A program made the translations under genes and the position numbers. Source: a virus. From it: a DNA stretch of 64,000 nt. This document shows positions 970 through 54,600 of this stretch, piece after piece (position 1 is the first letter of the stretch; each line of letters opens with the position of its first letter). Below the pieces are notes generated by a model that was given only the letters and a program-made list of their open reading frames with translations, did not search any database and had not been told where the DNA came from. The stretch is taken from the IMG/VR virus record IMGVR_UViG_3300028646_000003, positions 1-64,000 of that record. One strand, 5' to 3'.

Positions 970-2220
970 TTGAGAGTATTCGTTAAAAATTTAAGAGGAC
1001 AAAACTTAATGCCTTGTTCTCAGAGAAAAGCAAGATTATTATTAAAACAGAATAAAGCAAAGATATATTCTTATAATCCTTTTAGTATACAATTATTAAA
1101 ACAAACAGGCGAATCAATACAAGAATGTAATATAGGTATAAATACTGGATATAGATATATGGGATTTGCAATAACAAGTAGCAATAAAGTTTTAATTAAA
1201 GGAGAAATAGAATTAAGGAACAATATAAAAGAGTTGTTATTTTCTAGAAAAGAATACCGAAGAACTCGTAGAAGTAGAAAAACTAGATATAGACAAGCGA
1301 GATGGAAAAATAGAGCAAGAAAGATAGGATGGTTAGCACCTTCTATACAATCAAAAATAGATAATGAAATATTCTGGGTTAATAAATTAAAATATTTATT
1401 ACCTAATTATAATTTAATAGTTGGCATTGGGAAATTTGATACTCAAAGACTTATAAATCCAGATGTGGATAATAAACATGGTGATTTGTACGGATATGAA
1501 AATGTAAAAGCTTATTTAATAACTAGAGAAAATAATAAATGTCAAATATGTGGGAAAACATATGATGGTTTAGGTTGGAGAATACATCATAAAAAAGAAA
1601 GGAATAAGGGAGGAAGTAATAGAGTTGAAAACTTAGCACTAGTACATGAACAATGTCATAAAGATTTTCATGCAGGGCTAATAAAAAAGAAATTTAGAAA
1701 ACCTAAAGAATATAAAGAGACAACATTTATGAATATATTAAAACAACGAATCATAAGTATATTAAATTGCACTGTTACTTATGGTTATATAACTAAAATT
1801 GATAGACAAAATTTAAAGTTAGACAAGTCTCAGTATAATGATGCGATAGCAATAAGTGGAATAAAAGAAATTAAAGAAAATTGCAATGACATATTATATA
1901 TAAAACAAGCTAGAAAGAAAAAGAGAAGTTTACATGAAGGAACGGCTAGAAAAGGGAGAAAAGAACCTAATAGGCAATCCAAAAGAAATTCTAAGAATAC
2001 TAAATGTTCTCATGGATTTTATTTAAACGATAAAGTTGAAGTGTTTGGTAAAGTTGGGTGGATAAGTGGGTTTGCTGGATATGAATGTTACATAAAAGAT
2101 ATAAGTGATAATTATATAGTTACCCAAAATAAAGCTGGGAAAGGCGTATCTCTTAAACTTTTAAAACTTATAAATCATAATAACAATTGGAAATATACAT
2201 ATAAACAAATTAATATATAA
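970..2220 (+). CDS. iscB: IscB-like RNA-guided nuclease with RuvC catalytic residues lost and HNH intact
   Basis: 416 aa, TTG start with GGAGGG seven bases upstream. The N-terminus (KARLLLKQNKAKI) matches the PLMP/RRXRR start of IscB proteins, followed by the Arg-rich bridge YRRTRRSRKTRYRQAR (about 96-111). The HNH domain sits inside the RuvC fold: CQIC (191-194), RIHH (204-207), N221 and CH (229-230). The C-terminus (NDKVEVFGKVGWISGF...) matches the target-interaction domain. In RuvC-I the expected GxDxG reads GINTG, so Asp is Asn58. RuvC-II reads IVGIGKFDTQ, so the expected Glu is Gly152. RuvC-III reads KSQYNDA, so His is Gln288 while Asp291 remains. The family cuts the non-target strand with RuvC and the target strand with HNH, so this protein should only nick. 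It is a stand-alone gene without transposon ends, more like a homing endonuclease than a transposon accessory. Confidence 0.88.
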   Translation: MRVFVKNLRGQNLMPCSQRKARLLLKQNKAKIYSYNPFSIQLLKQTGESIQECNIGINTGYRYMGFAITSSNKVLIKGEIELRNNIKELLFSRKEYRRTRRSRKTRYRQARWKNRARKIGWLAPSIQSKIDNEIFWVNKLKYLLPNYNLIVGIGKFDTQRLINPDVDNKHGDLYGYENVKAYLITRENNKCQICGKTYDGLGWRIHHKKERNKGGSNRVENLALVHEQCHKDFHAGLIKKKFRKPKEYKETTFMNILKQRIISILNCTVTYGYITKIDRQNLKLDKSQYNDAIAISGIKEIKENCNDILYIKQARKKKRSLHEGTARKGRKEPNRQSKRNSKNTKCSHGFYLNDKVEVFGKVGWISGFAGYECYIKDISDNYIVTQNKAGKGVSLKLLKLINHNNNWKYTYKQINI

Positions 2221-12814: not shown

Positions 12815-14095
12815 ATGGAAGAAAACTACATTGTACATCATTTACATGATGACACATCTAACTGTAATGGATATGCTGATTCATGTACTAAATATGAAGA
12901 ATATATTAAATTAGCAAAAAAATGTGGAATGAAAGCAATAGCATTCAGTAATCATGGTGGTATATATGATTGGATTAAAAAGAAACAATACTGTGATAAA
13001 AATGGAATTAAATATATACATGGAGTTGAATTGTATTTATGTATTAATCTTCAGGACAATACTAGAGGATATCATATAGGATTGTATGGAAAGAATTGGG
13101 AAGGAGTTAAAGAACTAAATACTCTTATGTCAATGGCGACTTCAAAAGGAGTAAAAGAGGATAAATCAGATAGACACATGTATTATAATCCTAGAATATC
13201 ATTTGAAGAACTCATGAATACAAGTGATAATATTATAATTACTACTGCTTGTTTAGCTTCTCCACTATGTAAATTAGGCAATAAAGATATATTAAATGAC
13301 GTAGAAGGTAATGAAACCGAAGAAGGTAGAAAACAATATGAATATAATTTACAAAAAAGAGATGAATTATTACAATGGTTATCTAAACACAATGATAGAT
13401 GTTTTTTAGAGATTCAATATCATAATTGTAATAGTCAAATAGAATTTAATAGTCAATTATATGAATGGTCTAAATTATATAATATACCACTAATAAGTGG
13501 AACAGATACTCATTCATCTAATAAATATAAAGCCGAATGTAGAACAGTTTTACAAAAAGCTAAAGATAGTTTTTATGGAGAAGAAGATGAGTTTGATTTA
13601 ATATGGAAAACATATGATGAATTAGTAGAATCATTTAAAATACAAAATTCCTTACCATTAGAAGTTGTACTTGAAGCAATTAATAATACAAATGTTTTAT
13701 CTAATATGGTAGAAGAGTTTACATTAGATAAAACATTTAAATACCCAAATTTATATGGTAATAATTCAAAATTATTATGGAAAAATAGAATATTTAAAAT
13801 GTTAAAAGATAAAAAGGAACGCAATATTATAGATGTTTCTAAATTAGAAGAATACAAAAAAGCAATATTAGAAGAATTTGATGTAATGTCTAAGTTAGGA
13901 ATGGAAAGTTTTATGATGTTTATGTCAGAACTTATGGAGTGGGCTAGAAATAGTGATATACATTCTAGCCCATGTAGGGGAAGCGTAGGAGGAAGCATTA
14001 TAGCATATATAACTGATATAATTACTGTAGATCCTATTAAGTGGCACACAGTATTTTCAAGATTTTGTAATGCAGATAGAATAAGTCTTGGTGAT
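12815..14095 (+). CDS. dnaE: DNA polymerase III alpha (DnaE type), exon 1
   Basis: 427 codons. It begins with a PHP domain (VHHLHDDTSNCNGYADS, near 7-23) and continues to GRGSVGGS-like SPCRGSVGGS near 389. It ends ADRISLGD at the first catalytic Asp. Joined to the second exon this gives SLGD-IDEDF, equivalent to the PDFDIDF active-site motif of DnaE enzymes, and a complete protein of 1121 aa. The reading frame runs directly into TAA at 14096-14098 within the intron, so unspliced RNA yields only this N-terminal piece. It is the replicative polymerase of the phage. Confidence 0.88.
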
Positions 14096-15354
14096 TAAAA
14101 TAACAAAATAGTTCTAAATAATAAATAAATATGATATAATAAATTAAAATAAAGGAGGTGAGAATTATGAATCAAGAGTATAAAATGAAAATTTCCAAGG
14201 AAACAATTATTGATATATATTATAATGAATATATTAATGGGACTTCTGCTTTAAAATTAGAAGAAAAATATGAATTAAGTAAAGGATATTTATATAGATG
14301 GTTTAATAAACTTGATTTACCCTTAAGAGATAATAGTGTTAATTCTAAACAATACAGTTTTAATGAAAACTACTTTGAAAACATAGATACCGAAGATAAA
14401 GCATATTGGTTAGGTTTTGTATATGCTGATGGCTTTATAACATCTAAAAGAAAACACGCTAATAGAAGTTTAGGAATTTCTTTAGGTATTAAAGACGAAA
14501 GTCATTTGCAAAAACTAAATTATTGTTTAAATAGCAATACACCAGTAAATAAATATATAGAAACTGCTGGATTTGGGATAGGAAATAAATATTGTAGAGT
14601 TATATATGTAAGTAAGAAATTAACAAATGATTTAATAAAACATGGTGTATATGAAAATAAAACTGATATAATAACATCTCCTAATACAATTCCTTATAAA
14701 TATATAAAAGATTTTATTAGAGGATATTTCGACGGAGACGGAAGTATTTGGAAACAAGATAGTAATACACAAGTAAATATTGGTTTCGTTGGAACTAATG
14801 ACTTGTTGCAGTTTATTATGAAGTATTTATTAGATAATAATGCTATATTAAGAGAATATCCTTTGAATAAAAGAAAATCTGAACAAATAGTTAGTAATTT
14901 TAAATTTGGTGGAAATTATAATTCGTTTAGATTTTTAGATTTTATATACAAGGACTCAAATATTTATTTAAATAGAAAGTATCATATTTATTTAGAATTA
15001 AAAGAACACATTGATAGTCACCCTATACAGTAATGTATAGTATAAAAAATTCGGTGAACTTATAAGTATAAGGTGTATAATCAACGAATAGTAATGCTAG
15101 GAAATGAGTATTAATGATTATGCTAACAGGGGAAGCCTTAACGTAAAGACGATGGTAATCCTGTGCCAAGCTTGTAGAGAAATCTACTTGAAGGTCAAAC
15201 GACTAAAATGAGTTGGAATACAACTCTAAGAGGATTAAAGCATGGTGAAAGTCCAAATCCGTAGTGCCGAACTCCTATTTATATAGGATGAAGATATAGT
15301 CTACTCCGACTCTTAATTGAGTGTTAAAGTATTAGGAAACTAACGGTATCAAGG
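14096..15354 (+). other. Group I intron in dnaE, 1259 bases
   Basis: The upstream exon ends in U (GGTGAT) and the intron ends in G (ATCAAGG), as group I introns require. P1 can form between exon GGTGAT (14090-14095) and GTCACC (15017-15022) with a terminal G-U pair. P2 is CTATAC/GTATAG (15023-15028 with 15035-15040). P7 is GACTA (15201-15205) with TAGTC (15297-15301), within a typical AAGATATAGTC context. The whole endonuclease gene lies in the P1 loop and its last codons overlap P1 and P2. Splicing restores the polymerase active site. Confidence 0.85.
14167..15033 (+). CDS. LAGLIDADG-type homing endonuclease inside the dnaE intron
   Basis: 288 aa from ATG 14167 with AAAGGAGGTGAG upstream; the in-frame GTG 14158 belongs to that site. 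Two LAGLIDADG-like helices are visible: YWLGFVYADGF near 78 and FIRGYFDGDGS near 180. An N-terminal helix-turn-helix-like segment (ALKLEEKYELSKGYLYRWF) precedes them. It should cleave intron-less dnaE alleles at the splice junction and so spread the intron. Its 3' end is constrained by the ribozyme because it encodes P1 and part of P2. Confidence 0.82.
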   Translation: MNQEYKMKISKETIIDIYYNEYINGTSALKLEEKYELSKGYLYRWFNKLDLPLRDNSVNSKQYSFNENYFENIDTEDKAYWLGFVYADGFITSKRKHANRSLGISLGIKDESHLQKLNYCLNSNTPVNKYIETAGFGIGNKYCRVIYVSKKLTNDLIKHGVYENKTDIITSPNTIPYKYIKDFIRGYFDGDGSIWKQDSNTQVNIGFVGTNDLLQFIMKYLLDNNAILREYPLNKRKSEQIVSNFKFGGNYNSFRFLDFIYKDSNIYLNRKYHIYLELKEHIDSHPIQ

Positions 15355-17439
15355 ATTGATGAAGACTTTGCTCCAAAAGATAGAATAAAAGTATATAAGT
15401 ATATCATAGAAAGATTTGGAAATAAGAATGTATCATATATATTATCACTTAGTACTATTCAAGATAGAGGTAGTATTGATGTATTAGCCAAAGGATTAAA
15501 TTATAAAGACTTAGATTTAGTTAAACAGATTAAAAATGAATTTGATAATATCTTCGATGAGTATTCTAAAATAATACAAGAAGAAGTTAACTTGGAAGAA
15601 TTAGACAACGCAACTTCTAAATCACCTAATTTTGATGATTACAAATTATATATAAATGTAATTAGAAATAAAGAAAAGTTAAAAAGAGTTAAAGAATTAA
15701 AAACGTTATGGGATACATTAAGAGAAGATAATAAAGAATTATTCTATTACTTTGATGGAATAAAAGGAACAGTTATAGCCAAAGGAAATCATCCTTCTGG
15801 AATGATAGGTAGTCCAATAACTCTATTTGATAATATGGGTGTATTTTATAAAGGAGGAGATGAAGATTTTCCTGTTTCATTTTGTGCTATGAAGGCAGTA
15901 GATTCATTGAATTATGTAAAGTTTGATATATTAGGACTGAAAACTATAGGTGTAATTCAAGATACATATAAATTATTAAATAAAAAATGGGAAGAAGCAC
16001 ATGAAATTAATTGGGACGATGATAATGTGTGGAGTGATATGTTAATTAGTAATGCTGGAATATTTCAATTCGAAGGAGATTATGCATTTGATTTATTATC
16101 TAAATTTAAACCACATGCAATAAACGATATGTCATTAGTAAATGCAAGTCTTAGACCATCAGGAAAGTCTTATAGAAATAGATTAATTAGTGGGGAATTT
16201 AATAAAAATCCATCTGAAATAATAGATAAGTTATTAGAGGCTAATAAAGGATTTTTGGTATTTCAAGAAGATTCGATTGCATTTTTACAAGAAATATGTG
16301 GCTTTAGTGGTTCTTTAGCCGATACTACAAGAAGAGCTATAGGAAAAAAAGACTTAGAATTACTAAAAGAACAACTCCCAAAAATATTAGAAGGTTATTG
16401 TAATAAATCAGATCAACCAAGAGAAATAGCTGAAAAAGAAGCAAAACAGTTTATACAAATAATTTCAGATTCCTCGGAATATCAATTTGGATATAATCAT
16501 AGCACAGGATATTCAATGAATGGTTATATGTGTGCAAGACTAAGATATTATTATCCATTAGAGTATACTACTGCATATTTAAATAATGCTGAAGACCAAG
16601 CTGATATAGATAATGGAATAGCCCTTGCTAAAGCTAAAAATATAAATATACAAAATCCTAAGTTTAGATATTCTAAAGGTGAATACATGTGTGATAAAGA
16701 AACAAATACAATTTATAAAGGTGTTGGATCAATTAAATATTTAAATGAAACATGTGCAAATCAATTATATGAATTAAAAAACAATGCCTATAATACTTTT
16801 ATAGATTTATTAAAAGATATAAAAGAAAAAGTAGATATAAATTCAAGACAATTAACAGCTTTGATTTTATTAGATTATTTTACCGAATTCGGTAAATCTA
16901 AAAAGTTATTAGAAGTATATAACAAATACACTGATTTAAGTAGCAGAAAACAATTCAAAAAAGTTGATTTAATAACAATGGGACTAACAGAGGATATTAT
17001 AAAAAGATATGCTAAAAAAGAAACAGAAAAGATATTTAAAGAAGTTGATGTTGAATCTTTGATAAATGAACTCATAGAAAATATAGAAAACAAAGACGTA
17101 CCTTTAAAAGAAAAAATATCTGCCGAAATAGAGTATTTGGGATATCCGATAACAAAAGTAGAAAATGATAGTTTATATTATGTTATAAAAATAGATGAAT
17201 TTAAAAATAAGAAGTCAATAACAAGATATCTAACAATGTACGATTTACATACAAATGATTTAATAAAATATAAACTATCTGATTTCTTATATTTTTATGA
17301 TAATCCAATTGAGGAAAAGGATATTGTGCAAATAACTAGTGAATCTAAAAAGCCTAAAAAGCATAAAGATGATAACGGAAATTGGAAAGTTGTGCCTAAT
17401 GAATTTAATCTTTGTATAGACTCATGGGTATGTTATTAA
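15355..17439 (+). CDS. dnaE: DNA polymerase III alpha (DnaE type), exon 2
   Basis: 694 codons plus stop, opening with IDEDFAPKDR, which supplies the second and third acidic residues of the catalytic motif. Typical DnaE landmarks follow: VKFDILGLKTIGVIQDT, a FQFEGDYAFDLL segment and FGYNHSTGYSMNGYMCARL. The C-terminal 200 residues are less conserved and may hold the OB and partner-binding region. No separate initiation codon is needed because the exon is joined by splicing. Confidence 0.85.
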   Translation: MDEDFAPKDRIKVYKYIIERFGNKNVSYILSLSTIQDRGSIDVLAKGLNYKDLDLVKQIKNEFDNIFDEYSKIIQEEVNLEELDNATSKSPNFDDYKLYINVIRNKEKLKRVKELKTLWDTLREDNKELFYYFDGIKGTVIAKGNHPSGMIGSPITLFDNMGVFYKGGDEDFPVSFCAMKAVDSLNYVKFDILGLKTIGVIQDTYKLLNKKWEEAHEINWDDDNVWSDMLISNAGIFQFEGDYAFDLLSKFKPHAINDMSLVNASLRPSGKSYRNRLISGEFNKNPSEIIDKLLEANKGFLVFQEDSIAFLQEICGFSGSLADTTRRAIGKKDLELLKEQLPKILEGYCNKSDQPREIAEKEAKQFIQIISDSSEYQFGYNHSTGYSMNGYMCARLRYYYPLEYTTAYLNNAEDQADIDNGIALAKAKNINIQNPKFRYSKGEYMCDKETNTIYKGVGSIKYLNETCANQLYELKNNAYNTFIDLLKDIKEKVDINSRQLTALILLDYFTEFGKSKKLLEVYNKYTDLSSRKQFKKVDLITMGLTEDIIKRYAKKETEKIFKEVDVESLINELIENIENKDVPLKEKISAEIEYLGYPITKVENDSLYYVIKIDEFKNKKSITRYLTMYDLHTNDLIKYKLSDFLYFYDNPIEEKDIVQITSESKKPKKHKDDNGNWKVVPNEFNLCIDSWVCY

Positions 17440-44238: not shown

Positions 44239-44730
44239 ATGATAAGTAATTATGAAGTTCAATATATGAATATAGTTAAAAATATAATAGAATATGGATA
44301 CTACGATAATAATAGAACAGGTATGCCAACATATAAACTACCACATCAAATAATACAAGTGGATTTACAAAAGGAGTTTCCTATATTAAAAACTAAACAG
44401 GTGGCTTTTAAAACAGCTACAAAAGAAATGTTATGGATATGGCAACAACAGTCAAATGATGTTACATTATTACAAAATCAAAATGTTCATATTTGGGATG
44501 AATGGGTTGATAAGAATAATACTATAGGAAAAGCTTATGGGTATCAAATAGCAAAATATAAACAACTTGATAAACTTATTGAAACTTTAAAAACTAATCC
44601 ACAAGATAGAAGAATGATTATTTCTTTATGGAATATTGAAGATTTACCAGAAATGCAATTACAACCTTGTTGTTATCAAACTATTTGGGATGTGACAGAT
44701 GGTAAACTGAATTGTATGCTTATACAACGT
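44239..44730 (+). CDS. thyA: Thymidylate synthase, exon 1
   Basis: 164 codons. [12 protein letters not shown] near 23 and [11 protein letters not shown] near 71 are typical of ThyA. The active-site Cys lies in [12 protein letters not shown] near 147, where the usual His after it is Cys. The exon ends CMLIQR at 44730, and the next in-frame codons run into a stop in the intron. Joined to exon 2 it gives [13 protein letters not shown], matching the conserved RSxDxxLGxPFN. The enzyme makes dTMP from dUMP; its cofactor product is recycled by the DHFR encoded next. Confidence 0.88.
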
Positions 44731-45925
44731 TTGTAAAAGAGCGTCTTTAGGTAGTAATACCTATCGAAAACCCTGTTAAACGGGGAAACTCTTATATTTA
44801 TAAGACAATCCCGTACTAAATATTATTATTTGTGTTATTAAAATAAAAAGGAGGTGAATAAATAATGATAGGAACGTATTTTATAAAAAATTTACTTAAT
44901 AATAAATTTTATGTAGGTCATTCAGTTAATATAAATCAAAGATTTAATTCTCATAAGTCAGCACTAAGAAAAAATAAACATCATAATAAGCACTTGCAAA
45001 GAGCGTGGAATAAATATGGTGAAAATAATTTTGAATTTGAAATCTATAAAATTTGTAATACAGAAATTGAAAGTATAGAAATTGAACAATATTATATAGA
45101 TAATTATAAAGATATGTTATATAACATATCTAAAAAGGCTAAAGATGGTGGTGATTTGTTATCGTATCATCCCAATAAGAAACTAATTATAGAAAAAGGA
45201 TTAGAAACTAGAAAAGAAAATATGTCTAAAATGTCAAAAGAAGAACTAAGCAATACATACGGAAGAAAAGGAGAAGATAATGGAATGTATGGCAGACATC
45301 ATTCTGAAAAATCGAAAAATAAAATTTCTCAAAAAAACACAGGTGCTTATCGAGACATAAAAGGAAAAACTTATTATGAGTTCTTTGGAGAAGAAAAGGC
45401 TGTCGAAATTAAAAATAACTTATCTGATAAAGCAAAATTAAAAATTGGAGAATTAAATAGTTTTTATGGGAAACATCACTCTGAGGAATCGAAAAATAAA
45501 ATTAGAGAAAAACAATTAGGAAAGAAACCTCCTAACATGAAAAAAGTAAAAATAGAAGAAGATGAATACGAAAGTCTAACCGAAGCTTCTAGACAACTAG
45601 GGGTGACACCTACAACAATATTAAATAGAATAAAATCAAAAAACTTTCCTAATTATTATTACATATAAAAACACAAATAATAATTAAATGTCTAACGACT
45701 ATCGAAAGCATGTTTGATAAATATAAAAGGTTATTAAATAGAAGCGAGTAGAGTACCCCTCAAGTTATTGGAGGTTGCATAATGCAAGGTGACGGGAAAA
45801 GCAGGGAATCCTATCTGAAATACTAATAGGATTGTGATATAGTCTTTTCTATATAGTAATATATAGCAGTTTCAATTAATGGAGTTGAAACGGGTAAGGT
45901 TTAACGAACCTTATTGAAAATAGAG
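44731..45925 (+). other. Group I intron in thyA, 1195 bases
   Basis: The exon ends in U and the intron in G (AATAGAG). A short P1 can form from exon ACGT and GCGT (44741-44744). The core starts with ACCCTGTTAAACGGGG (P3-P4 region) and AATCCCGTACTAAAT before the endonuclease gene, so the gene sits in a P6-like loop. After it come GACTA (45697-45701) and TAGTC (45840-45844), the P7 strands, in a GTGATATAGTC context. Splicing restores the PFN-containing half of the enzyme. Confidence 0.85.
44865..45668 (+). CDS. GIY-YIG homing endonuclease inside the thyA intron
   Basis: 267 aa. GTYFIKNLLNNKFYVG at residues 3-18 is the GIY-YIG motif, with SVNINQRFNSHK after it. Two NUMOD3 motifs follow (NGMYGRHHSEKSKNKIS and NSFYGKHHSEESKNKI) and a NUMOD1/IENR1-like end (YESLTEASRQLGVTPTTI). 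This is the architecture of I-TevI-type intron nucleases. AGGAGGTGAATAAATA precedes the ATG. It should cut intron-less thyA. Confidence 0.88.
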   Translation: MIGTYFIKNLLNNKFYVGHSVNINQRFNSHKSALRKNKHHNKHLQRAWNKYGENNFEFEIYKICNTEIESIEIEQYYIDNYKDMLYNISKKAKDGGDLLSYHPNKKLIIEKGLETRKENMSKMSKEELSNTYGRKGEDNGMYGRHHSEKSKNKISQKNTGAYRDIKGKTYYEFFGEEKAVEIKNNLSDKAKLKIGELNSFYGKHHSEESKNKIREKQLGKKPPNMKKVKIEEDEYESLTEASRQLGVTPTTILNRIKSKNFPNYYYI

Positions 45926-46315
45926 TCAGGAGACATTCCATTGGGCGTTCCCTTTAATACAACGCAATATGCAGTTTTAACTCATATGATTGCACAAGCT
46001 ACTGGATTACAAGTAGGGCAACTTACTCATATTATAAATAATGCTCATATCTATGAAAATCAAATTGAAGGCATGAGAGAACAATTAGAAAGATATGAGA
46101 GGTTACAAAGTTGTGTATATAATTATGATACTTATAATGAATATTATAAAGATATAACGCACGAAGAATATAGTAAATTACAAGATATTTATTCTATAAC
46201 CCCTAAACTAAAATTAAATCCTGACATAACTAATTTTTATGACTTCACCATAGACGGTATTGCTTTAGAAGATTATAAAAATATGGGAATTATTAAAATG
46301 AAAGTGAGTGTATAG
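45926..46315 (+). CDS. thyA: Thymidylate synthase, exon 2
   Basis: 129 codons plus stop, opening [18 protein letters not shown], the conserved folate and phosphate-binding region, and continuing [19 protein letters not shown]. It ends one base before the DHFR start codon. No start codon of its own is needed because it is joined by splicing; total enzyme 293 aa. Confidence 0.87.
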
Positions 46316-46796: not shown

Positions 46797-47168
46797 GTGG
46801 CTGATTATAATGAAATAATAAATGATCTAATTGAATTATTGCACAAGATAGACGTATTTAAAACAAGAGCTGAAAAATATTATAGTGAGTGTGCTGACAA
46901 CATGGAATTGGGTGAAATATATGCTTATAAACAATCTGGTAAATTAGTATCTGAACTATTAGAAAAATATAAAAGTGCTAATATATCAATAAACGACTAT
47001 ACCATAACTAAATTAGCTAAAACTAAAACAATGCAAGAAATAATAGACACTATAGGTTCTGAAGTATGTCCTAGTGTATATGGACTTGTAGATTTTAACC
47101 AATACCAATGTGACGAATATAATTGTGAAACTTGTTGGGAATGTGCTTTAAGGGATTCAGGTATTTAA
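46797..47168 (+). CDS. Hypothetical Cys-containing protein, 123 aa, GTG start
   Basis: AAAGGAGTAAATACAA precedes GTG 46797, six bases after the DHFR stop. Helical N-terminal part; the C-terminus (QCDEYNCETCWECALRD) has a four-Cys cluster that probably binds metal. No family recognised. Confidence 0.6.
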   Translation: MADYNEIINDLIELLHKIDVFKTRAEKYYSECADNMELGEIYAYKQSGKLVSELLEKYKSANISINDYTITKLAKTKTMQEIIDTIGSEVCPSVYGLVDFNQYQCDEYNCETCWECALRDSGI

Positions 47169-47196
47169 TTTAAAGATGATGTTATATAATTTACAC

Positions 47197-47225
47197 TTCA
47201 CAAACAAACAAATGTTCGATATAAT
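47197..47225 (+). promoter_or_regulatory. Promoter with a LexA-like box in the spacer
   Basis: TTCACA (47197-47202), 17-base spacer, TATAAT (47220-47225). The spacer holds CAAACAAATGTTCG (47205-47218). This matches the Gram-positive LexA/DinR consensus CGAACRNRYGTTYG at all but one position. Binding there would block the -10. Confidence 0.45.
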
Positions 47226-47260
47226 GTTATTATTATATATTGAATAAGGAAGTGCAATTT

Positions 47261-47524
47261 ATGAAGGTTGTAGCGAAAAACATAGAAGTAATAGCTTACT
47301 TTACTGAAGAAGGGAAGATAACTCCTTTAAAGTTTAGGATTAAAAATGAAAATGGTGAATATCAAACTATAAAAATAGAAAAAGTTGTAGATACTAAGCT
47401 CGAAAGACTTTGTGGCAACAATGCAAAAGTATTTACATGTCAAAGCAATATTGATGGGATAGTGAAAATATATGAAATAAAATTCATAATAGAAAGTAGT
47501 AATTGGATACTATTTAAAATTTAA
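47261..47524 (+). CDS. Hypothetical protein, 87 aa
   Basis: ATG 47261 follows AAGGAAGTG; an in-frame TTG at 47240 is upstream of that site. Beta-rich small protein (EVIAYFTEEGKITPLKF). Last plus-strand gene before the convergent junction, under the promoter with the LexA-like box. Function unknown. Confidence 0.6.
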   Translation: MKVVAKNIEVIAYFTEEGKITPLKFRIKNENGEYQTIKIEKVVDTKLERLCGNNAKVFTCQSNIDGIVKIYEIKFIIESSNWILFKI

Positions 47525-47603
47525 AATAATAATGAATAATATCCAATACATAGGTCATACTATTATTATAAACCATTGCTTTAGGAAAACTAAAAAATGA
47601 AAA

Positions 47604-47687
47604 AAATAAGGGAGTCTAAATATAGATTAGATACTAATTGCAAATTAATGCAAAAAATATTTAAATTATATTTAGACTCCCTTAAAA
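47604..47687. terminator. Large inverted repeat at the convergent junction
   Basis: TAAGGGAGTCTAAATATA (47607-47624) pairs perfectly with TATATTTAGACTCCCTTA (47667-47684) around a 42-base loop. It is the best candidate for a bidirectional terminator for the plus-strand block, though the T-run is short. Confidence 0.55.
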
Positions 47688-47790
47688 TTGTAATTATTTA
47701 CCTCATAACGACATGTTGCTTATCCGATTTTCGTATGTTATTATTAGATTGGAACTAATTTAGTGGTATTTTCAAGCGATATTACTATAA

Positions 47791-47827
47791 AAAGAAGTGG
47801 CTTATAAATTTAAGTTGCTTCTTTTTA
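47791..47827 (+). terminator. Intrinsic terminator
   Basis: AAGAAGTGGCTTA and TAAGTTGCTTCTT form a 13-bp stem with three G-U pairs, followed by TTTTTATTT. Confidence 0.65.
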
Positions 47828-47857
47828 TTTGAACTTTAATTTATTTTTAAATGTGTA

Positions 47858-47960
47858 TTGACTTTGATTGAAATAGTGATATAATTGTTTTATGGATATA
47901 TTTTGTTTGTTATTATATGTCCTAAAGGTGAGATTACTTGAGAAAGTAGTCTCTTTTTAT
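47858..47960 (+). ncRNA. Promoter-terminator unit, candidate small RNA
   Basis: TTGACT (47858-47863), 16-base spacer, TATAAT (47880-47885), start expected near 47892. A 10-bp hairpin GAGATTACTT/AAGTAGTCTC (47930-47953) with a TTTTTATTTT tail ends the unit. The resulting RNA would be about 65 bases with no credible coding frame, antisense only to the very end of the minus-strand XhlA-like gene. The rest of 47525-47956 shows no gene. Confidence 0.45.
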
Positions 47961-48325
47961 TTTAATCCAAGATATGTTAAAATTCCACCAACAATCATAG
48001 ATGCTATAACCCAAAATTGTTTAGTATTATAAAATTTCATTTCATTATTTATTTTATTACTTTCAGTTTTTATTCTTTCTTCTTGAGATTCTTTTGCCTT
48101 AAAGTAATCAAACATTTCTTTGGTAAAGTTATTTAATGTATTTTGTTGTTTTTCAGACTGCTTCATTTGATCTTTTGACTGTTCTGCCATTAATAGTTTA
48201 ATTTCTGCTTGAGAGCGTGAAATCCCAGCTAATTCTAACCTTTGTTCAACATCACTTTCCTCAAGTCTTCTTAGTCTTGCTTCATGGTCTGATAATTGTT
48301 TGTCTATGTAATTATTTTCGTCCAT
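47957..48325 (-). CDS. XhlA-like hemolysin/lysis-associated membrane protein, 122 aa
   Basis: N-terminal coiled coil (DHEARLRRLEESDVEQRLEL...) and one C-terminal membrane segment (FWVIASMIVGGILTYLGL), the layout of XhlA-type proteins that assist phage holins and endolysins. GAGGAGGAA precedes the ATG on the minus strand. No endolysin gene is seen in this window. Confidence 0.65.
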   Translation of the reverse strand: MDENNYIDKQLSDHEARLRRLEESDVEQRLELAGISRSQAEIKLLMAEQSKDQMKQSEKQQNTLNNFTKEMFDYFKAKESQEERIKTESNKINNEMKFYNTKQFWVIASMIVGGILTYLGLK

Positions 48326-48663
48326 ATATATTCCTCCTCAAAATTTTAATTTATTTATTCATTGTTAACACATTCCTTTTCTTTAAGATTAGTGAATTAT
48401 AATATATTGATTTATATAAAGAGTATAATTATTTTTAATTTTGGTTATTATAACAGAGTAGAATTGATTATTGATTTAGAGTGTTGTTCTTTGGTAATTG
48501 ATTCTACAATATTTTAACCTTTTATATTTTAAATTGATAGATAATAGATACTGATAAAACCTAATCTTGTGGATTTTAATAGTTTCGATGAGGTTAGGTT
48601 TTATTGCTATTTGTTTTTTATTTTTGCTATTGTAATCATTTAAAAGAGTGGTTTTAAAAGGAG
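48326..48663. other. Intergenic, terminator for the recombinase and AT-rich leader
   Basis: AAAACCTAA (about 48567-48576) and TTAGGTTTTA (about 48593-48602) form an inverted repeat. It would end minus-strand transcription of the recombinase at 48664. The part nearer 48400 is AT-rich with a possible minus-strand TATAAT, but no clear -35. No gene seen. Confidence 0.5.
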
Positions 48664-49632
48664 TTAAATATCAAACTTTAGCATTTCTTGTTTTAAAGAT
48701 TCGGTATCTTCTTGCAAATAAAAATCTTTTGTTACACCCGTTGATCTATGGGATAACGCCTTCGAGACTGCTTCTAGACTCATACCTGCTTTATATCTAA
48801 GGTCACTGCCACTATGTCTTAAATCATGCATGGATAATTCAGGTTCATTGATAATAGCCCCTATTTGTTTTATCCATGTACTTTTAAATTGTCCAACTGA
48901 AGCTTGTCTCCACCCATTATAATTAGTAACAAATAAATGCTCACATTCAATTCCTTTTTCTTTTCTTTCATTCAACCATTGTTTAATTAATTCTATACAT
49001 CTATCATTGAGATTGAACGTAATAGAATATCCTTCTTTTTCGATTACATCTCTTATAACCCTATTTTCTAAGTCAATCTGGTCTAATCTAATAGTAGATA
49101 TAGCATTAACTCTAGCCATAGTAAATAACCCTAATTCAAATACTAATGTTAATTGAGTATTATTTCTTTCTTTTAATCCTTCTCTTATCGTTTCTACTTG
49201 TTCTTGTGTTAGAAATACTCTTTTTATTTCATAAACTCCTTTTTGAGCTTTAGGTCTTTCTAATAAATCTACTACATTTTCTTTGATTTTTCTTTTCTTT
49301 TTATAATATAGATATAATGATGAGATACTAGACAGTCTACGTTGCATACGTCTATCTTTATTTTCAAATACGCTTTGACATAGTGCAAGAAAATCTTCAA
49401 CAACATCTGCCATTTCCTCAGTTTCAAAATCAAATATGTATTTATTATCATAATTTTTTAATATAAAAACAAAGAATTGGTTTATATCTGAAGTATATGA
49501 ATTCTTAGAGGACTCAGCTAACTGTCTTTTCCCATTAAGATATTTCCTCCAAAGTTCTTTATTTTGTGGATTTATTTGTTCTATCAATTTTGGAGTTGTA
49601 TATTGAACATGTTTTCTTTTTTCTTTTGCCAT
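48664..49632 (-). CDS. Tyrosine recombinase (integrase family), 322 aa
   Basis: Catalytic elements of the family: TMARVNAIS near 177 (first Arg), MHDLRHSGSD near 269 (His-x-x-Arg) and ALSHRSTG then DFYL near 290-305 (His and nucleophile Tyr). An N-terminal SAM-like domain (SSKNSYTSDINQFF) precedes. It would integrate, resolve or circularise phage DNA. It is the downstream member of a two-gene unit with the DUF1064 nuclease. Confidence 0.8.
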   Translation of the reverse strand: MAKEKRKHVQYTTPKLIEQINPQNKELWRKYLNGKRQLAESSKNSYTSDINQFFVFILKNYDNKYIFDFETEEMADVVEDFLALCQSVFENKDRRMQRRLSSISSLYLYYKKKRKIKENVVDLLERPKAQKGVYEIKRVFLTQEQVETIREGLKERNNTQLTLVFELGLFTMARVNAISTIRLDQIDLENRVIRDVIEKEGYSITFNLNDRCIELIKQWLNERKEKGIECEHLFVTNYNGWRQASVGQFKSTWIKQIGAIINEPELSMHDLRHSGSDLRYKAGMSLEAVSKALSHRSTGVTKDFYLQEDTESLKQEMLKFDI

Positions 49633-49633
49633 A

Positions 49634-50170
49634 TTATATCAAGTCCTTTCTTAATTGTTTTATTTTGTCTTTTTTTTTACTAACATTCTTATCTTTCTCA
49701 GCTTTTAATTTGTCCCTAACTTCTTTCCTAGCTTTCTTTTCACTTTTCTTTTGTTTAACTAATTCAGTGTACTGTTTCTTTTCTATTTTATCTTCTAAGT
49801 TAAACCATCTGCTATCATATGTAACAATTAATTCAAAACGTGTATCTTGATTTAAGTATTTAAACATCTTTATCTTGCACTTACTTTCATTTGTAATATT
49901 ATAAAGACTACCTTTTACATCAACAACGACTAGTTGACCATCTCTAATAAAGCTCATATCAGAAATATATTCCATTTTACGAATTCCTTTATTTTCGTAG
50001 TGGGAATCTTTAAAGGCTGGCACTAATAAGAAAGGTTTTTGTCTATCTAAATTGTTTATCTCTCCTTTCTCTTGTTGCTTTAATAGTTCATTCCAATATT
50101 TCCATTCTGTTGTGCTGTCGAAAATTCCCCATTTAGGATCATCAACTTTTTTACTTGAATATTTGCCCAT
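49634..50170 (-). CDS. DUF1064-like nuclease, 178 aa
   Basis: Start taken at the ATG of MGKYSSKKVDD (minus, CAT 50168-50170), which has AGAAAGGA upstream. DSTTEWKYWNELLKQQ, then ISDMSFIRDG and LVVVDVKGSL form the Asp...D-x-K pattern of the DUF1064 PD-(D/E)XK family. Such proteins are frequent beside phage recombination genes and may act as Holliday-junction or branch nucleases. The C-terminus is a long Lys-rich coiled segment. Confidence 0.7.
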   Translation of the reverse strand: MGKYSSKKVDDPKWGIFDSTTEWKYWNELLKQQEKGEINNLDRQKPFLLVPAFKDSHYENKGIRKMEYISDMSFIRDGQLVVVDVKGSLYNITNESKCKIKMFKYLNQDTRFELIVTYDSRWFNLEDKIEKKQYTELVKQKKSEKKARKEVRDKLKAEKDKNVSKKKDKIKQLRKDLI

Positions 50171-50281
50171 ATCCCCATTCCTTTCTAATTCAATTTTTAT
50201 AATTCCACGCAACAAAAAAGAGCTTGTACAATTCATACAAACTCTAAAAATAATCTAATATTTAATTTTAATATCTTTGGC

Positions 50282-51106
50282 CTAATCCAAATCTTCTATA
50301 ACATTTAATAATTCTTCTTTACTCTTTCTGGTATAAATCCGAGTTGTTTCAATACTACCATGGCCACATAAATCGGCTACAATATCAATGGCCAAACCAG
50401 AATCTATTAACCGTTTTGCATATTGATGGCGAAATGAATGTGCATGATTTTTCTCCTTTTTTACATTGGCCAACTTACCATATTTCTTTAAAACTTTATC
50501 TACACCACTTCTAGTCATATGGCCACGAGTTCCTACAAACAGGTAATCACAACCTTTATTCATTCGGCCCAATCTACAATAATTTAACCAAACATCATTC
50601 AAGGCCTTGGGAATAAATACAGATCTAATCTTATTTCCCTTGCCAACAATTTGTATTGTATTACTATGTATGTCTTTTATTTGAAGTTGTAGCATTTCAC
50701 TTATTCTTAGGCCAGTCAATTCCAATGTTTTTACTATGGCCAACGTTCTATAATCCTTCTTGGCCTTAGCAATATCAATTATATTTTCTATATCAGCCTT
50801 ATTAATTACATTCTCTAAGAAATTCTGTGATTGTATTTTTACTTTTGTAGTTGTGGCCGACACTTCAATAAAAGCAAAGAATTGATGTATGGCCACAAGT
50901 TTTCTATTGGCCGAAGTAGGAGATAAGAATCTTTCATATAATAAATATTCTTTGTAGGCCTTCATTGTATCATTGTGAAATTCTAATATCTTATTTTCTT
51001 TTGCATAGGCCATGAATTGATTTATATCTCTCATATAGGCCTCAATAGTCTTATTACTTTTTTCTTGCTTGGCCAAGTATTCTCTAAACATTTGTAAATT
51101 ATTCAT
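50282..51106 (-). CDS. XerC/D-like tyrosine recombinase with dense GGCC sites, 274 aa
   Basis: ELTGLRISEML near 132 (Arg), HSFRHQYAKRL near 218 (His-x-x-Arg) and LCGHGSIETTRIY near 241-253 (His and Tyr nucleophile) define a tyrosine recombinase. Strong TGGAGGTA ribosome binding site. Its DNA is unusual: 17 GGCC words lie in the gene or at its stop, one more upstream at 51202. Some fall as xxG-GCC (Ala) and others as GGC-Cxx (Gly). Ala codons are mostly GCC preceded by codons ending in G, unlike neighbouring genes. The separate composition suggests an independent origin or direct selection on the word. Confidence 0.82.
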   Translation of the reverse strand: MNNLQMFREYLAKQEKSNKTIEAYMRDINQFMAYAKENKILEFHNDTMKAYKEYLLYERFLSPTSANRKLVAIHQFFAFIEVSATTTKVKIQSQNFLENVINKADIENIIDIAKAKKDYRTLAIVKTLELTGLRISEMLQLQIKDIHSNTIQIVGKGNKIRSVFIPKALNDVWLNYCRLGRMNKGCDYLFVGTRGHMTRSGVDKVLKKYGKLANVKKEKNHAHSFRHQYAKRLIDSGLAIDIVADLCGHGSIETTRIYTRKSKEELLNVIEDLD

Positions 51107-51426
51107 CTTTATATACCTCCATAACTATTATACCATGTTTTGGACTGATAATCTTAGTTATGTATCGAATTTAAAACAAAAATCCTAATTCTTAATGTTG
51201 TGGCCAGTATAAATATGAAAGTATTATCATTAATTCTAATTCTATTACGCCAATATTTTTAGACTTTCTTTTACCTTTAATACAATTGAATTTAAATGGC
51301 ATTCAAAAGCAGAGTTGCAAGTAGAATAACTTTTTCGATTTTATAAAAATGAATGGTTCTGTGGTGTTTATCAAAAATATATGTTATAATATTATATTAA
51401 CCACATAATCATCCTAAGGAGAAGCA
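51107..51426. other. Divergent intergenic region
   Basis: Minus-strand TATAAT (51127-51132) lies near the start of the recombinase with no good -35. Plus-strand TATAAT near 51388-51394 precedes the small gene at 51427. A GGCC word sits at 51202. No other gene is seen. It is a plausible place for a regulatory or attachment site, but no repeat identifies one. Confidence 0.4.
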
Positions 51427-51540
51427 ATGGAATATATATGTTTATCAATAAGTTGTTTGATTCTATTTATGCTAGGTCGTATAATTAATAAGTTACGGCA
51501 TGTCAGCCGAAATATTGATAATAAAATTTTCAATGATTAA
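51427..51540 (+). CDS. Small membrane peptide, 37 aa, on the opposite strand
   Basis: AAGGAGAAGCA precedes ATG 51427 and a TATAAT-like -10 lies about 30 bases upstream. The peptide has one hydrophobic segment (ICLSISCLILFMLG) and a basic tail. It is the only plus-strand gene in the minus-strand block and ends at its own terminator. Type I toxin-like in shape, but there is no antitoxin evidence. Confidence 0.5.
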   Translation: MEYICLSISCLILFMLGRIINKLRHVSRNIDNKIFND

Positions 51541-51562
51541 ATGAATCCAATTTACAAACACA

Positions 51563-51598
51563 AATAAGAGCAAGATTATAATATCTCTTGCCCTTATT
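51563..51598. terminator. Bidirectional terminator
   Basis: AATAAGAGCAAGA and TCTTGCCCTTATT form a stem with one mismatch, between the small plus-strand gene and the end of the large minus-strand fibre gene. Confidence 0.65.
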
Positions 51599-51612
51599 AC
51601 ATTAATTTATTA

Positions 51613-54600
51613 TTACATTATAAACACATATCCAATAATTTTATTTCCAACAACTATCTTGCATTCTAAATCAGATAAACTTCCTAAAACTTCTATTTTA
51701 GAACTCAAATCATTATTATAAGGAGTCCTAGTTATTATTTTACAACTTAATTCTGAAATATTTGATACTGAAATAATACCATTTAAATCATTAGTAGGAG
51801 TAATCTCTACTTTATTATCTAAGTCATTGTATTCATTTCTTCTAACTTTAATCTTACAAGAAATATCTCCTTTAGCAACTCTAATTATACAATCTAAATT
51901 TTCTACTGATATAATATCAATTTTTGAATTTAAATCAATTTCTTTAGTATTCCTTATTTTAATTACTGAATTTAAATAAGATGGTTTAATAACATTAATC
52001 TTACTATCTAAATTATCATTTGCTATTATATTGATTTTTGAATTAAGATCAATATCTGAATATCTTCTAACTTTAATAGTAGAACTTAAGTTTGCGTGAT
52101 TGGTTACTTCTATTAATGAATCTAGATTATTATAAGTAGTTACTATGATTTTAGAATCTAATTCTGAATCCCAAGTGTTTCTTACTTTAATTATACAACC
52201 TATTAATTCATTTGTTAGAACATTGATTACACAATTTAAATCGCTACGTTGAGTTACACTTAATTTATTATTTAAATCTAAAACGTCATTTCTTCGTACT
52301 ATAATACTTGAATATAACTCACTTGTAGGTGTAACTTTAATTATACTAGCTATATCAGGATTATTTACTATGATTTTGCTATTAAGTTCTTTGTATTCAT
52401 TTCTTCTTACTACAACTTTAGAGTCTAATGATAATATTTCATTTCTTCGGACAATTAAATTACTATCAATATTATCTATTTCATTACGTTTTACTGTTAT
52501 GATAGAATTTATATACGGATTATTTACAATAATTGTACTTGATAATTCATTTATTTCATTTAATCTAACTTTTAATAAGGAATCTAAATTATTTTCTTCA
52601 TTCCTTTTTACAACTAGTTTACAATCTAAATCTCCACGAATAACAGTAATTTTAGAATCTAAGTATCCATTATTATTTACGACCAAAGATGAATCTAAAT
52701 CGCTTTCTAAATTATAATTAGGTACAGTAATTGAACAACTTAAATCTTTATTTTCAACACTCATTACGAATATTTTACTTAAAAAATCATTAGAAACATT
52801 ACTCTTTACTGTAGTATCAAAATACTCTATTTCTAAGGTAGGTGGATAAACACTTTCCCTAGAATAAAGCCTTAGTCTTTGTTGAATTGACTCATCAAGT
52901 GATTTAATTATAAATCCATTTTGTAGCATACTACCATTGAACCAATTATCAATTATATACATTAAGTCAATTTCTATAATACTTCCACTAACGCTAGAAA
53001 CAGCTTTTATTGTACTTAAAGAATCTTCTTGATTATTCCAAGTTATATCATTTTCATACCAAGAATCTTTTACTTCATCTAATTGAATACCACTTGTATA
53101 ATAAGACGTATTACTATGTAATTTTAAAATAGCCTTTGTAAATACCCTAGTTGTAGGTATCCCACTTAAATCAAACTGTAAGAATGAGCGATATAATTCT
53201 CCACTATTATTACCAACATACATATCAATTTCGCTACCATAGTTGAATGTAGGTAATTGACTTCTGGTATAAGCATCTTGTACCGGCTTTAATGTCAAAT
53301 TAACTTTAGGAGCTGGTAATATATCTACAATACCAAACATTCTATTGGAAGGTCTAGTCTTGATTATAGAATTTAAATCCTCAGTACCTTCATTAATTAC
53401 TAAGATAGTAGAATCTAAATCATTAGTATCTGTAATGTATACAAACATCTTACTTGAGATATCGTTTTTACCATCGACAAATCTTACATGAATAGTTGAA
53501 TTTAAATCAATATTTTCATTTCTTCTGACTAATACATTTGAATTGATATCAGTTATATCATTTCTTCTAACTGTAATCTGTGAATCGAATTCATTGTTGT
53601 CATATCTTCTGACATTCAAGATACAATCTACTGTAGACATATCTCTTACTGTTATTTTAGTTGATAAATCTTTTGCAGAAGGTATTCTAACAGATATTTT
53701 AGAATTTAATTCTTTATAATTGGTAACTTTTATTTTACTTAAGAATTCACTTGTTGGAGATATTTTTACTATTCCATTGAAATCATCATCTAAATATCTT
53801 CTTACTTTTATTATAGAATCAACTTCGCCCTTACTAACTAAAATCTTACAACCCAATTCTTCAAATAATGAAATTAAAATTGTACTATCAATGCTACCAT
53901 CGTCATATCTTCTTACATTAATTATGGAATTTAAATCATTATCTTCAGACCTTCTAACTTTAATTGTAGAATCTAAGTCATTGGTAAACATAACTAAAAT
54001 TTTACTATTTAATTCATTAATGTCGTATCTTCTGACTTTAATTATCGAACTTAACTCATTATAATTATACCTTCTAACTGTTATCTTTGATGATAATTCA
54101 CTAAATCTTGTGGTAGATATTGTGCAATTCAGTTCACTTACATCTTTTCTTCGTACTATTATTTTAGAGTTTAAATCTTTATATTCATTACGTCTTACTG
54201 CAAGTTTACTAACTAAGTCTAAAATATTAGTAACTTTAATATTTGAATTTAGTTCACTAATATCATATCTTCTAACTTTCACCTTACAATCTAAATCCTT
54301 AATTTGTGTAACATTTATAATACAAGGCATTTGATAATTATTAACTACAGTTATTTTACAACTAATATTAGGTTGGGATACTGCAACTTGTGAATTGAAA
54401 TCTCTAGCAGTATTTATTTTAACTTTTATTATAGAATTTAAATTAACTCCTGTTGCAACATTGATTTTACTATTTAATGCGTCTGTTAATACTTGTAATT
54501 TACAATCTAAATAACTATTATTTCTAACTGTTATTGTACTATCTAAATCATTATTAAAATCATATTCAGGAACTATTATAGTACAATTTAATTCATTTTT

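Follow-up and report, generated by a model that had tools for sequence, protein, structure and literature searches.

A dense GGCC array over one recombinase gene in a phage genome otherwise almost free of the word

The GATC clusters at oriC of E. coli and at pac of phage P1 are regulatory clusters of methylation sites, HIP1 in cyanobacteria is a word that is super-abundant genome-wide, and in the CpG islands of vertebrates a word that has been lost throughout the genome is dense at selected units. The avoidance of restriction words by phages has so far been treated as pure escape. Such avoidance is the subject of a study by Rusinov et al. 2018 (PMC6286503), and for SPbeta-type phages a methyltransferase, MtbP, is described that methylates GGCC (PMC8270828).

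In this paper, we describe a phage record of 130,085 bases (IMG/VR record IMGVR_UViG_3300028646_000003), bases 1-64000 of which are referred to as the window, i.e. the whole stretch of 64,000 bases under analysis. Its genes run rightward until ~47.5 kb and leftward from ~48 kb. The record has 19 GGCC sites, and eighteen of them lie within 927 bases of 31.6% G+C (50279..51205, no strand), hereafter the island, which covers the gene of a tyrosine recombinase. We regard this observation as firm: it is real, exact and very unlikely to have arisen by chance.

The island and the loss of GGCC around it

An earlier note on this DNA had given 18 positions for the word, had seen none elsewhere in the window, and had put the number expected at fewer than one. 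All 18 positions are correct (50279, 50362, 50390, 50468, 50521, 50566, 50603, 50710, 50738, 50762, 50855, 50891, 50909, 50957, 51008, 51038, 51071 and 51202), and an exact word count finds only these in the 64,000 bases of the window, all inside 50279..51205. The other 66,085 bases of the record contain a single GGCC, at 93579, so the word is not equally common elsewhere, a point that the note had left to genome-wide counts. Sixteen sites lie inside the recombinase gene and two flank it: the outer upstream site (51202..51205, no strand) is non-coding and stands 96 bases before the ATG, and the outer downstream site (50279..50282, no strand) has its last base pair in common with the TAG stop codon. 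The word occurs in the two codon phases that had been noticed before, with 12 sites read as xxG-GCC (Ala) and four as GGC-Cxx (Gly), in addition to the one over the stop codon and the one upstream.

Several lines of evidence show how exceptional this density is. The gene is enriched in GGCC ~34-fold over its base composition, and the island shows a local excess of a methyltransferase word. Among the residue pairs that permit GGCC without a change of the protein, 16 of 19 carry it in the recombinase, vs 1 of 1149 in 111 other genes. Synonymous resampling with the codon usage of the phage (20,000 draws) gave a mean of 0.31 GGCC, in keeping with the expectation of fewer than one, and a maximum of 4, and resampling with the recombinase's own codon usage gave a mean of 4.75 and a maximum of 13, against the 16 observed. 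In a scan of all 4-, 5- and 6-mers over all 1-kb segments of the record, the extreme outliers were GGCC and the longer words that include it; the log10 p of local clustering is ~-50 for GGCC and ~-8 for the top word neither containing nor overlapping it. Chance is ruled out as the origin of the island by this word scan and by the resampling. Furthermore, identical copies of the island sequence are found in two further IMG/VR contigs, which speaks against an assembly error.

The enrichment is specific to the tetranucleotide. In the island, 18 of the 20 GGC triplets and 18 of the 20 GCC triplets (90%) are parts of GGCC, compared with 20-35% in eight stretches (34-42% G+C) taken from clostridial genomes rich in GGCC; codon bias therefore fails as an explanation. 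The same had been argued earlier from the two codon phases, and it is borne out by the alanine codons, as GCC is chosen for 12 of 13 alanines after a G vs 1 of 6 after other bases (Fisher p 0.003). The avoided palindromes also remain low within the island (GCGC, CCGG and CGCG 0, GATC 1). Taken with the usage of permissive pairs and the resampling, the 90% share rules out both codon preference and a shift in G+C. No longer motif was seen around the sites. The transcript of the island shows no excess of RNA folding (z -0.48), and this value, together with the lack of any Rfam match in 47000-52000, rules out RNA structure as the cause.

The key context, which the earlier note had missed, is the purge of GGCC from the rest of the phage. 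In the record minus the island there is one GGCC, whereas a Markov estimate predicts 36.5 and base composition 44, so that an orthodox Type II word is strongly under-represented genome-wide, and GCGC, CCGG, CGCG and GATC are likewise depleted, a joint pattern typical of restriction avoidance. GGTC and GACC, into which GGCC would be turned by deamination of cytosine, are not in excess in the record outside the island, which rules out deamination as the source of the purge; the loss thus looks like selection against the word.

The recombinase, its neighbours and its homologues

The gene within the island (50282..51106, - strand) encodes a XerC/D-like tyrosine recombinase of 274 aa, and its earlier designation as a recombinase is upheld by Pfam matches to Phage_integrase (PF00589, 1.1e-31) and to a SAM-like N-terminal domain (PF02899, 3.4e-10). 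It scores below the cut-off of the NCBIfam XerA/XerC/XerD models (152 bits vs 330-335) and hence is no XerC/XerD equivalog. The residues R134, K156, H223, R226, H249 and Y258, which we take to be the catalytic R-K-H-R-H-Y set of tyrosine recombinases, are all present, and the gene is intact-looking as judged from its sequence. A terminator-like hairpin, identified by a consensus match only, lies just 3' of it (50219..50245, - strand). As the island extends over one gene plus flanks and is followed by this hairpin, it appears to correspond to one transcription unit. A promoter scan of the island region gave matches no more numerous than in shuffles, and a search for an inverted-repeat or att-like layout around the gene found only weak AT-rich repeats. 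The adjoining gene downstream (49634..50236, - strand), for a DUF1064 protein that is Holliday-junction-resolvase-like by PHROG, has no GGCC, nor does the gene of a second tyrosine recombinase (48664..49632, - strand), homologues of which occur in IMG/VR contigs taken for SPbeta-like phages.

The recombinase has relatives in only three viral contigs (L001-L003), and its matches in genomes are at most ~30% identical. The closest homologue, in contig L003, is 67-68% identical and has the same gene neighbourhood, with synteny on both sides and a DNA similarity that continues past the gene end. There is no GGCC in the 13,333 bases of this contig. A conserved non-coding element of 46 bases (51252..51297, - strand), which lies outside the island, is 89% identical in L003 (1798-1843); it stands upstream of the recombinase in both phages, at a distance of ~145 bases here vs 660 in L003.

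Twenty recombinases were aligned, i.e. ours, that of L003 and 18 outgroups. The 19 permissive residue pairs of our protein are an ordinary number among them (range 9-22); as the other homologues are equally permissive, the anomaly lies in the use of these places and not in their number. Seven of the alanines coded through GGCC (12, 33, 50, 66, 115, 168 and 239) are replaced by another residue in L003, and at these positions no more than one of the outgroups with a residue there (14-18 of them) has alanine. These seven alanines look derived, so the protein has followed the DNA word. A comparison with homologous recombinases had been proposed beforehand as a check on the pattern, and it cuts both ways: a homologue without the pattern does exist, in L003, but what it shows is that the island is a derived state and not an ordinary feature of the family.

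Geobacillus virus E3 and other purged phages

A second island was found in a control scan, in Geobacillus virus E3, which is described as a temperate phage (PMC8303945). Ten GGCC lie in 140352-141180, at the end of its linear record, and one elsewhere in the 141,298 bases. The gene GP201 has five GGCC at nine permissive pairs, a number reached in 0 of 20,000 resamplings, and its non-coding flanks have another five vs 0.09 expected; directly downstream of it there is a hairpin with one GGCC in each arm. In this island, 87% of the GGC and GCC triplets are inside GGCC. A family search with GP201 gave no match, and the gene is not a recognisable recombinase, so that an island seems not to need one. 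It also weakens the idea, put forward in the earlier note, that GGCC has an active role in recombination. The only relatives of GP201 are E3 itself in the viral contigs and a homologue in SPbetaL8 at 33% identity; the latter has no GGCC, and SPbetaL8 as a whole has an ordinary number (34 in 40,510 bases). In L137, a relative of E3, the GP201 unit is lacking beside the same neighbour gene, so the unit is accessory in E3, and its strand skew is unlike that of the adjoining early region. The core proteins shared by E3 and our phage are mostly 22-45% identical. The positions of the two islands relative to the terminase and to the strand-switch points do not match, which speaks against a role of both as a packaging or origin site.

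Further features were seen along the way. In E3 (L036, 6015-9465), a DGQHR-domain gene, annotated as a DNA sulfur modification protein, lies between two integrase genes. In our window, the protein of 970-2220 (+ strand) has RRXRR and HNH domains (PF14239, PF01844) and is presumably IscB-like; in its first RuvC-like motif, GINTG, the usual aspartate may be missing. Thymidylate synthase is in two pieces (44239-44736 and 45914-46315, + strand), both of which match the E3 enzyme, with an ORF between them (44865-45668), an arrangement that is probably due to an intron carrying a homing endonuclease. DNA polymerase III alpha is likewise split (12815-14098 and 15592-17439, + strand; both pieces match E3), with an ORF at 14158-15033 that probably marks another intron or an intein-like insertion.

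The frequency of islands was surveyed in 21 phage records, taken in full or almost in full, a record being called purged if the observed number of GGCC outside any island was at most about a tenth of that expected. Fifteen records are purged, i.e. ours, E3, PJN02, vB_BcoS-136, G012, G016, G008, 2S-4, LW81, G009, SEP9, TR-TP2, LC76P1, KKP_3916 and Sundance, and they are not independent, since some are probably related (the counts of PJN02 and 2S-4 are very similar). An island is present in two of the 15, ours and E3, and absent in 13. The other six (GR1, LIBA6276, G011, G014, G021 and G022) are neither purged nor carry an island; a cluster at the end of G011 was rejected as a third island, being a patch of 50% G+C. 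G009, G011, G014 and G021 are shorter contigs, and 131 bases of KKP_3916 and 1,117 of G022 were left out. Many large Bacillota phages among the records surveyed are almost without GGCC, and in LW81, vB_BcoS-136, G012, Sundance and LC76P1 no GATC is observed where 426-590 are expected.

A C5 methyltransferase (PF00145) or a HaeIII-type endonuclease was found in none of 15 records (14 purged ones, including ours and E3, and the contig of L003), the search covering these two kinds of protein and not N4-cytosine methyltransferases. If the acting protein is of those kinds, it would therefore be the host's. The purged phages seem to escape GGCC restriction by being without the word.

Possible causes and comparison with known systems

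We tentatively favour the reading that selection has built the GGCC sites into a dense word array over one transcription unit, which would address that unit to a GGCC-specific protein. As the word is nearly absent elsewhere, any such protein would be expected to act on the recombinase unit alone. The likeliest reader would be a putative restriction-modification system of the host with GGCC as its word, because it would account for the purge and, at the same time, supply an enzyme specific for GGCC. In host-methylated DNA, i.e. a prophage or adapted progeny, the unit would be methylated at up to 36 cytosines, and in unmethylated DNA it would be bound or cut. The GGCC state of the host would then control the recombinase unit, in the manner of a density-coded epigenetic switch. 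More generally, and with somewhat greater reserve, a purged word might have been re-used as a private address, by which a host restriction-modification enzyme or another word-specific protein sees one unit, with at least two phages having built islands independently over different genes; a regulatory logic shared by our phage and E3 is what we infer from these two cases. Among the three causes suggested in the earlier note, binding or methylation sites for control would be the best. Against the selected array stand the 13 purged phages of 15 that have no island, and a real objection to the switch is that a restriction target in one gene should carry a cost whenever the phage enters a restricting cell that is unmethylated. 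No protection was found.

Among the alternatives, the most serious is a foreign word bias, i.e. a recent arrival of the unit, as yet unpurged, from a lineage with GGCC super-abundant genome-wide. The accessory look of the GP201 unit, missing from L137 and with a deviating strand skew, fits such an origin. Gene order around our recombinase is shared with L003 on either side, however, and a scan for three close GGCC sites in a draw of 391 genomes of one clostridial class, Bacilli being left out, gave at most 265 triple matches, far below the density expected of an island-like genome. One of the highest (G027, 170 matches) is of 65% G+C, and a dense low-G+C stretch in another genome (G310, L199) was rejected as a run of N. 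Stretches from 14 of the 391 were looked at more closely (that of G056 is all N), and the triplet signature of the island is in none of the five taken at 34-42% G+C, where the share is 20-35% vs 90%. Transfer from a source with another word bias, which had been among the first suggestions, is thus weakened, and for our gene, with its vertical placement, more strongly than for the accessory unit of E3; we consider it unlikely. Still less likely, in our opinion, is an array for a phage or host protein that binds GGCC outside restriction-modification, as a silencer or in nucleoid structure, partition or packaging, with density as the code. A purge elsewhere with saturation in one unit is the address that a binder of short words would need, and no extended motif would be called for; the differing positions in our phage and E3, on the other hand, make a joint role in packaging or at an origin less likely, and no helical phasing was found among the sites of the island. 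We know of no non-restriction binding protein of such a kind that reads GGCC density.

Two further explanations have to be weighed against the selected array. The unit might be excisable by restriction, in that a GGCC enzyme cuts almost only here and the unit is removed or replaced while the rest is joined by its blunt ends or recombined. The outer sites do bracket the recombinase on both sides, the remaining genome is nearly immune, and the phage has an ATP-dependent DNA ligase of its own; but two sites would be enough, phages usually die or pay a price when both strands of their chromosome are cut, and no deletion junction is seen among the identical copies, so that we hold excision to be improbable. 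Most improbable of all is a mutational or conversion process that writes GGCC into one unit and leaves it to protein constraint which copies survive. It would agree with the sites in the non-coding flanks and with the changed amino acids, but the L003 positions homologous to our GGCC differ in many ways and show no single substitution type, and to our knowledge no process that writes GGCC into one unit has been described.

If the selected array is the true explanation, phages would exploit restriction-modification systems as signals, and host defence would become a gene-specific epigenetic input. Our recombinase runs opposite to avoidance, its protein apparently bent to gain the word, and E3 provides a second island, over a different gene. 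Further cases could be searched for in purged genomes by the share of GGC and GCC triplets that lie inside GGCC. A description of such an island was not found in the open-licence papers searched. The pattern fails the defining features of plain restriction avoidance, of genome-wide word excess and of codon bias.

The comparison with known systems bears this out. A HIP1-like word would be over-represented genome-wide, and the remaining 129 kb of our record have one more GGCC. CpG islands resemble our island in the loss of the word and in its local density, the cause of the loss being different and no reader being known here, so that they serve as an analogy only. The SPbeta-type phages are likewise large Bacillota phages under GGCC restriction pressure; they are described as methylating the word through MtbP (PMC8270828), whereas in our phage and E3 a C5 methyltransferase is missing and the escape seems to lie in the absence of the word. 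With the restriction-site avoidance treated by Rusinov et al. 2018 (PMC6286503), our genome shares the near absence of GGCC outside the island, but one of its genes is enriched and not merely left unpurged, an exception of which no instance was found in that study, whose main text has neither "GGCC" nor "cluster". Plain avoidance would leave no enriched region, and here 18 sites stand in 927 bases. The GATC clusters of oriC and P1 pac share with our island the local density of a four-base methyltransferase word; they are short non-coding or control regions, whereas our array spans a whole coding gene, with amino acids changed, in a genome purged of the word elsewhere.
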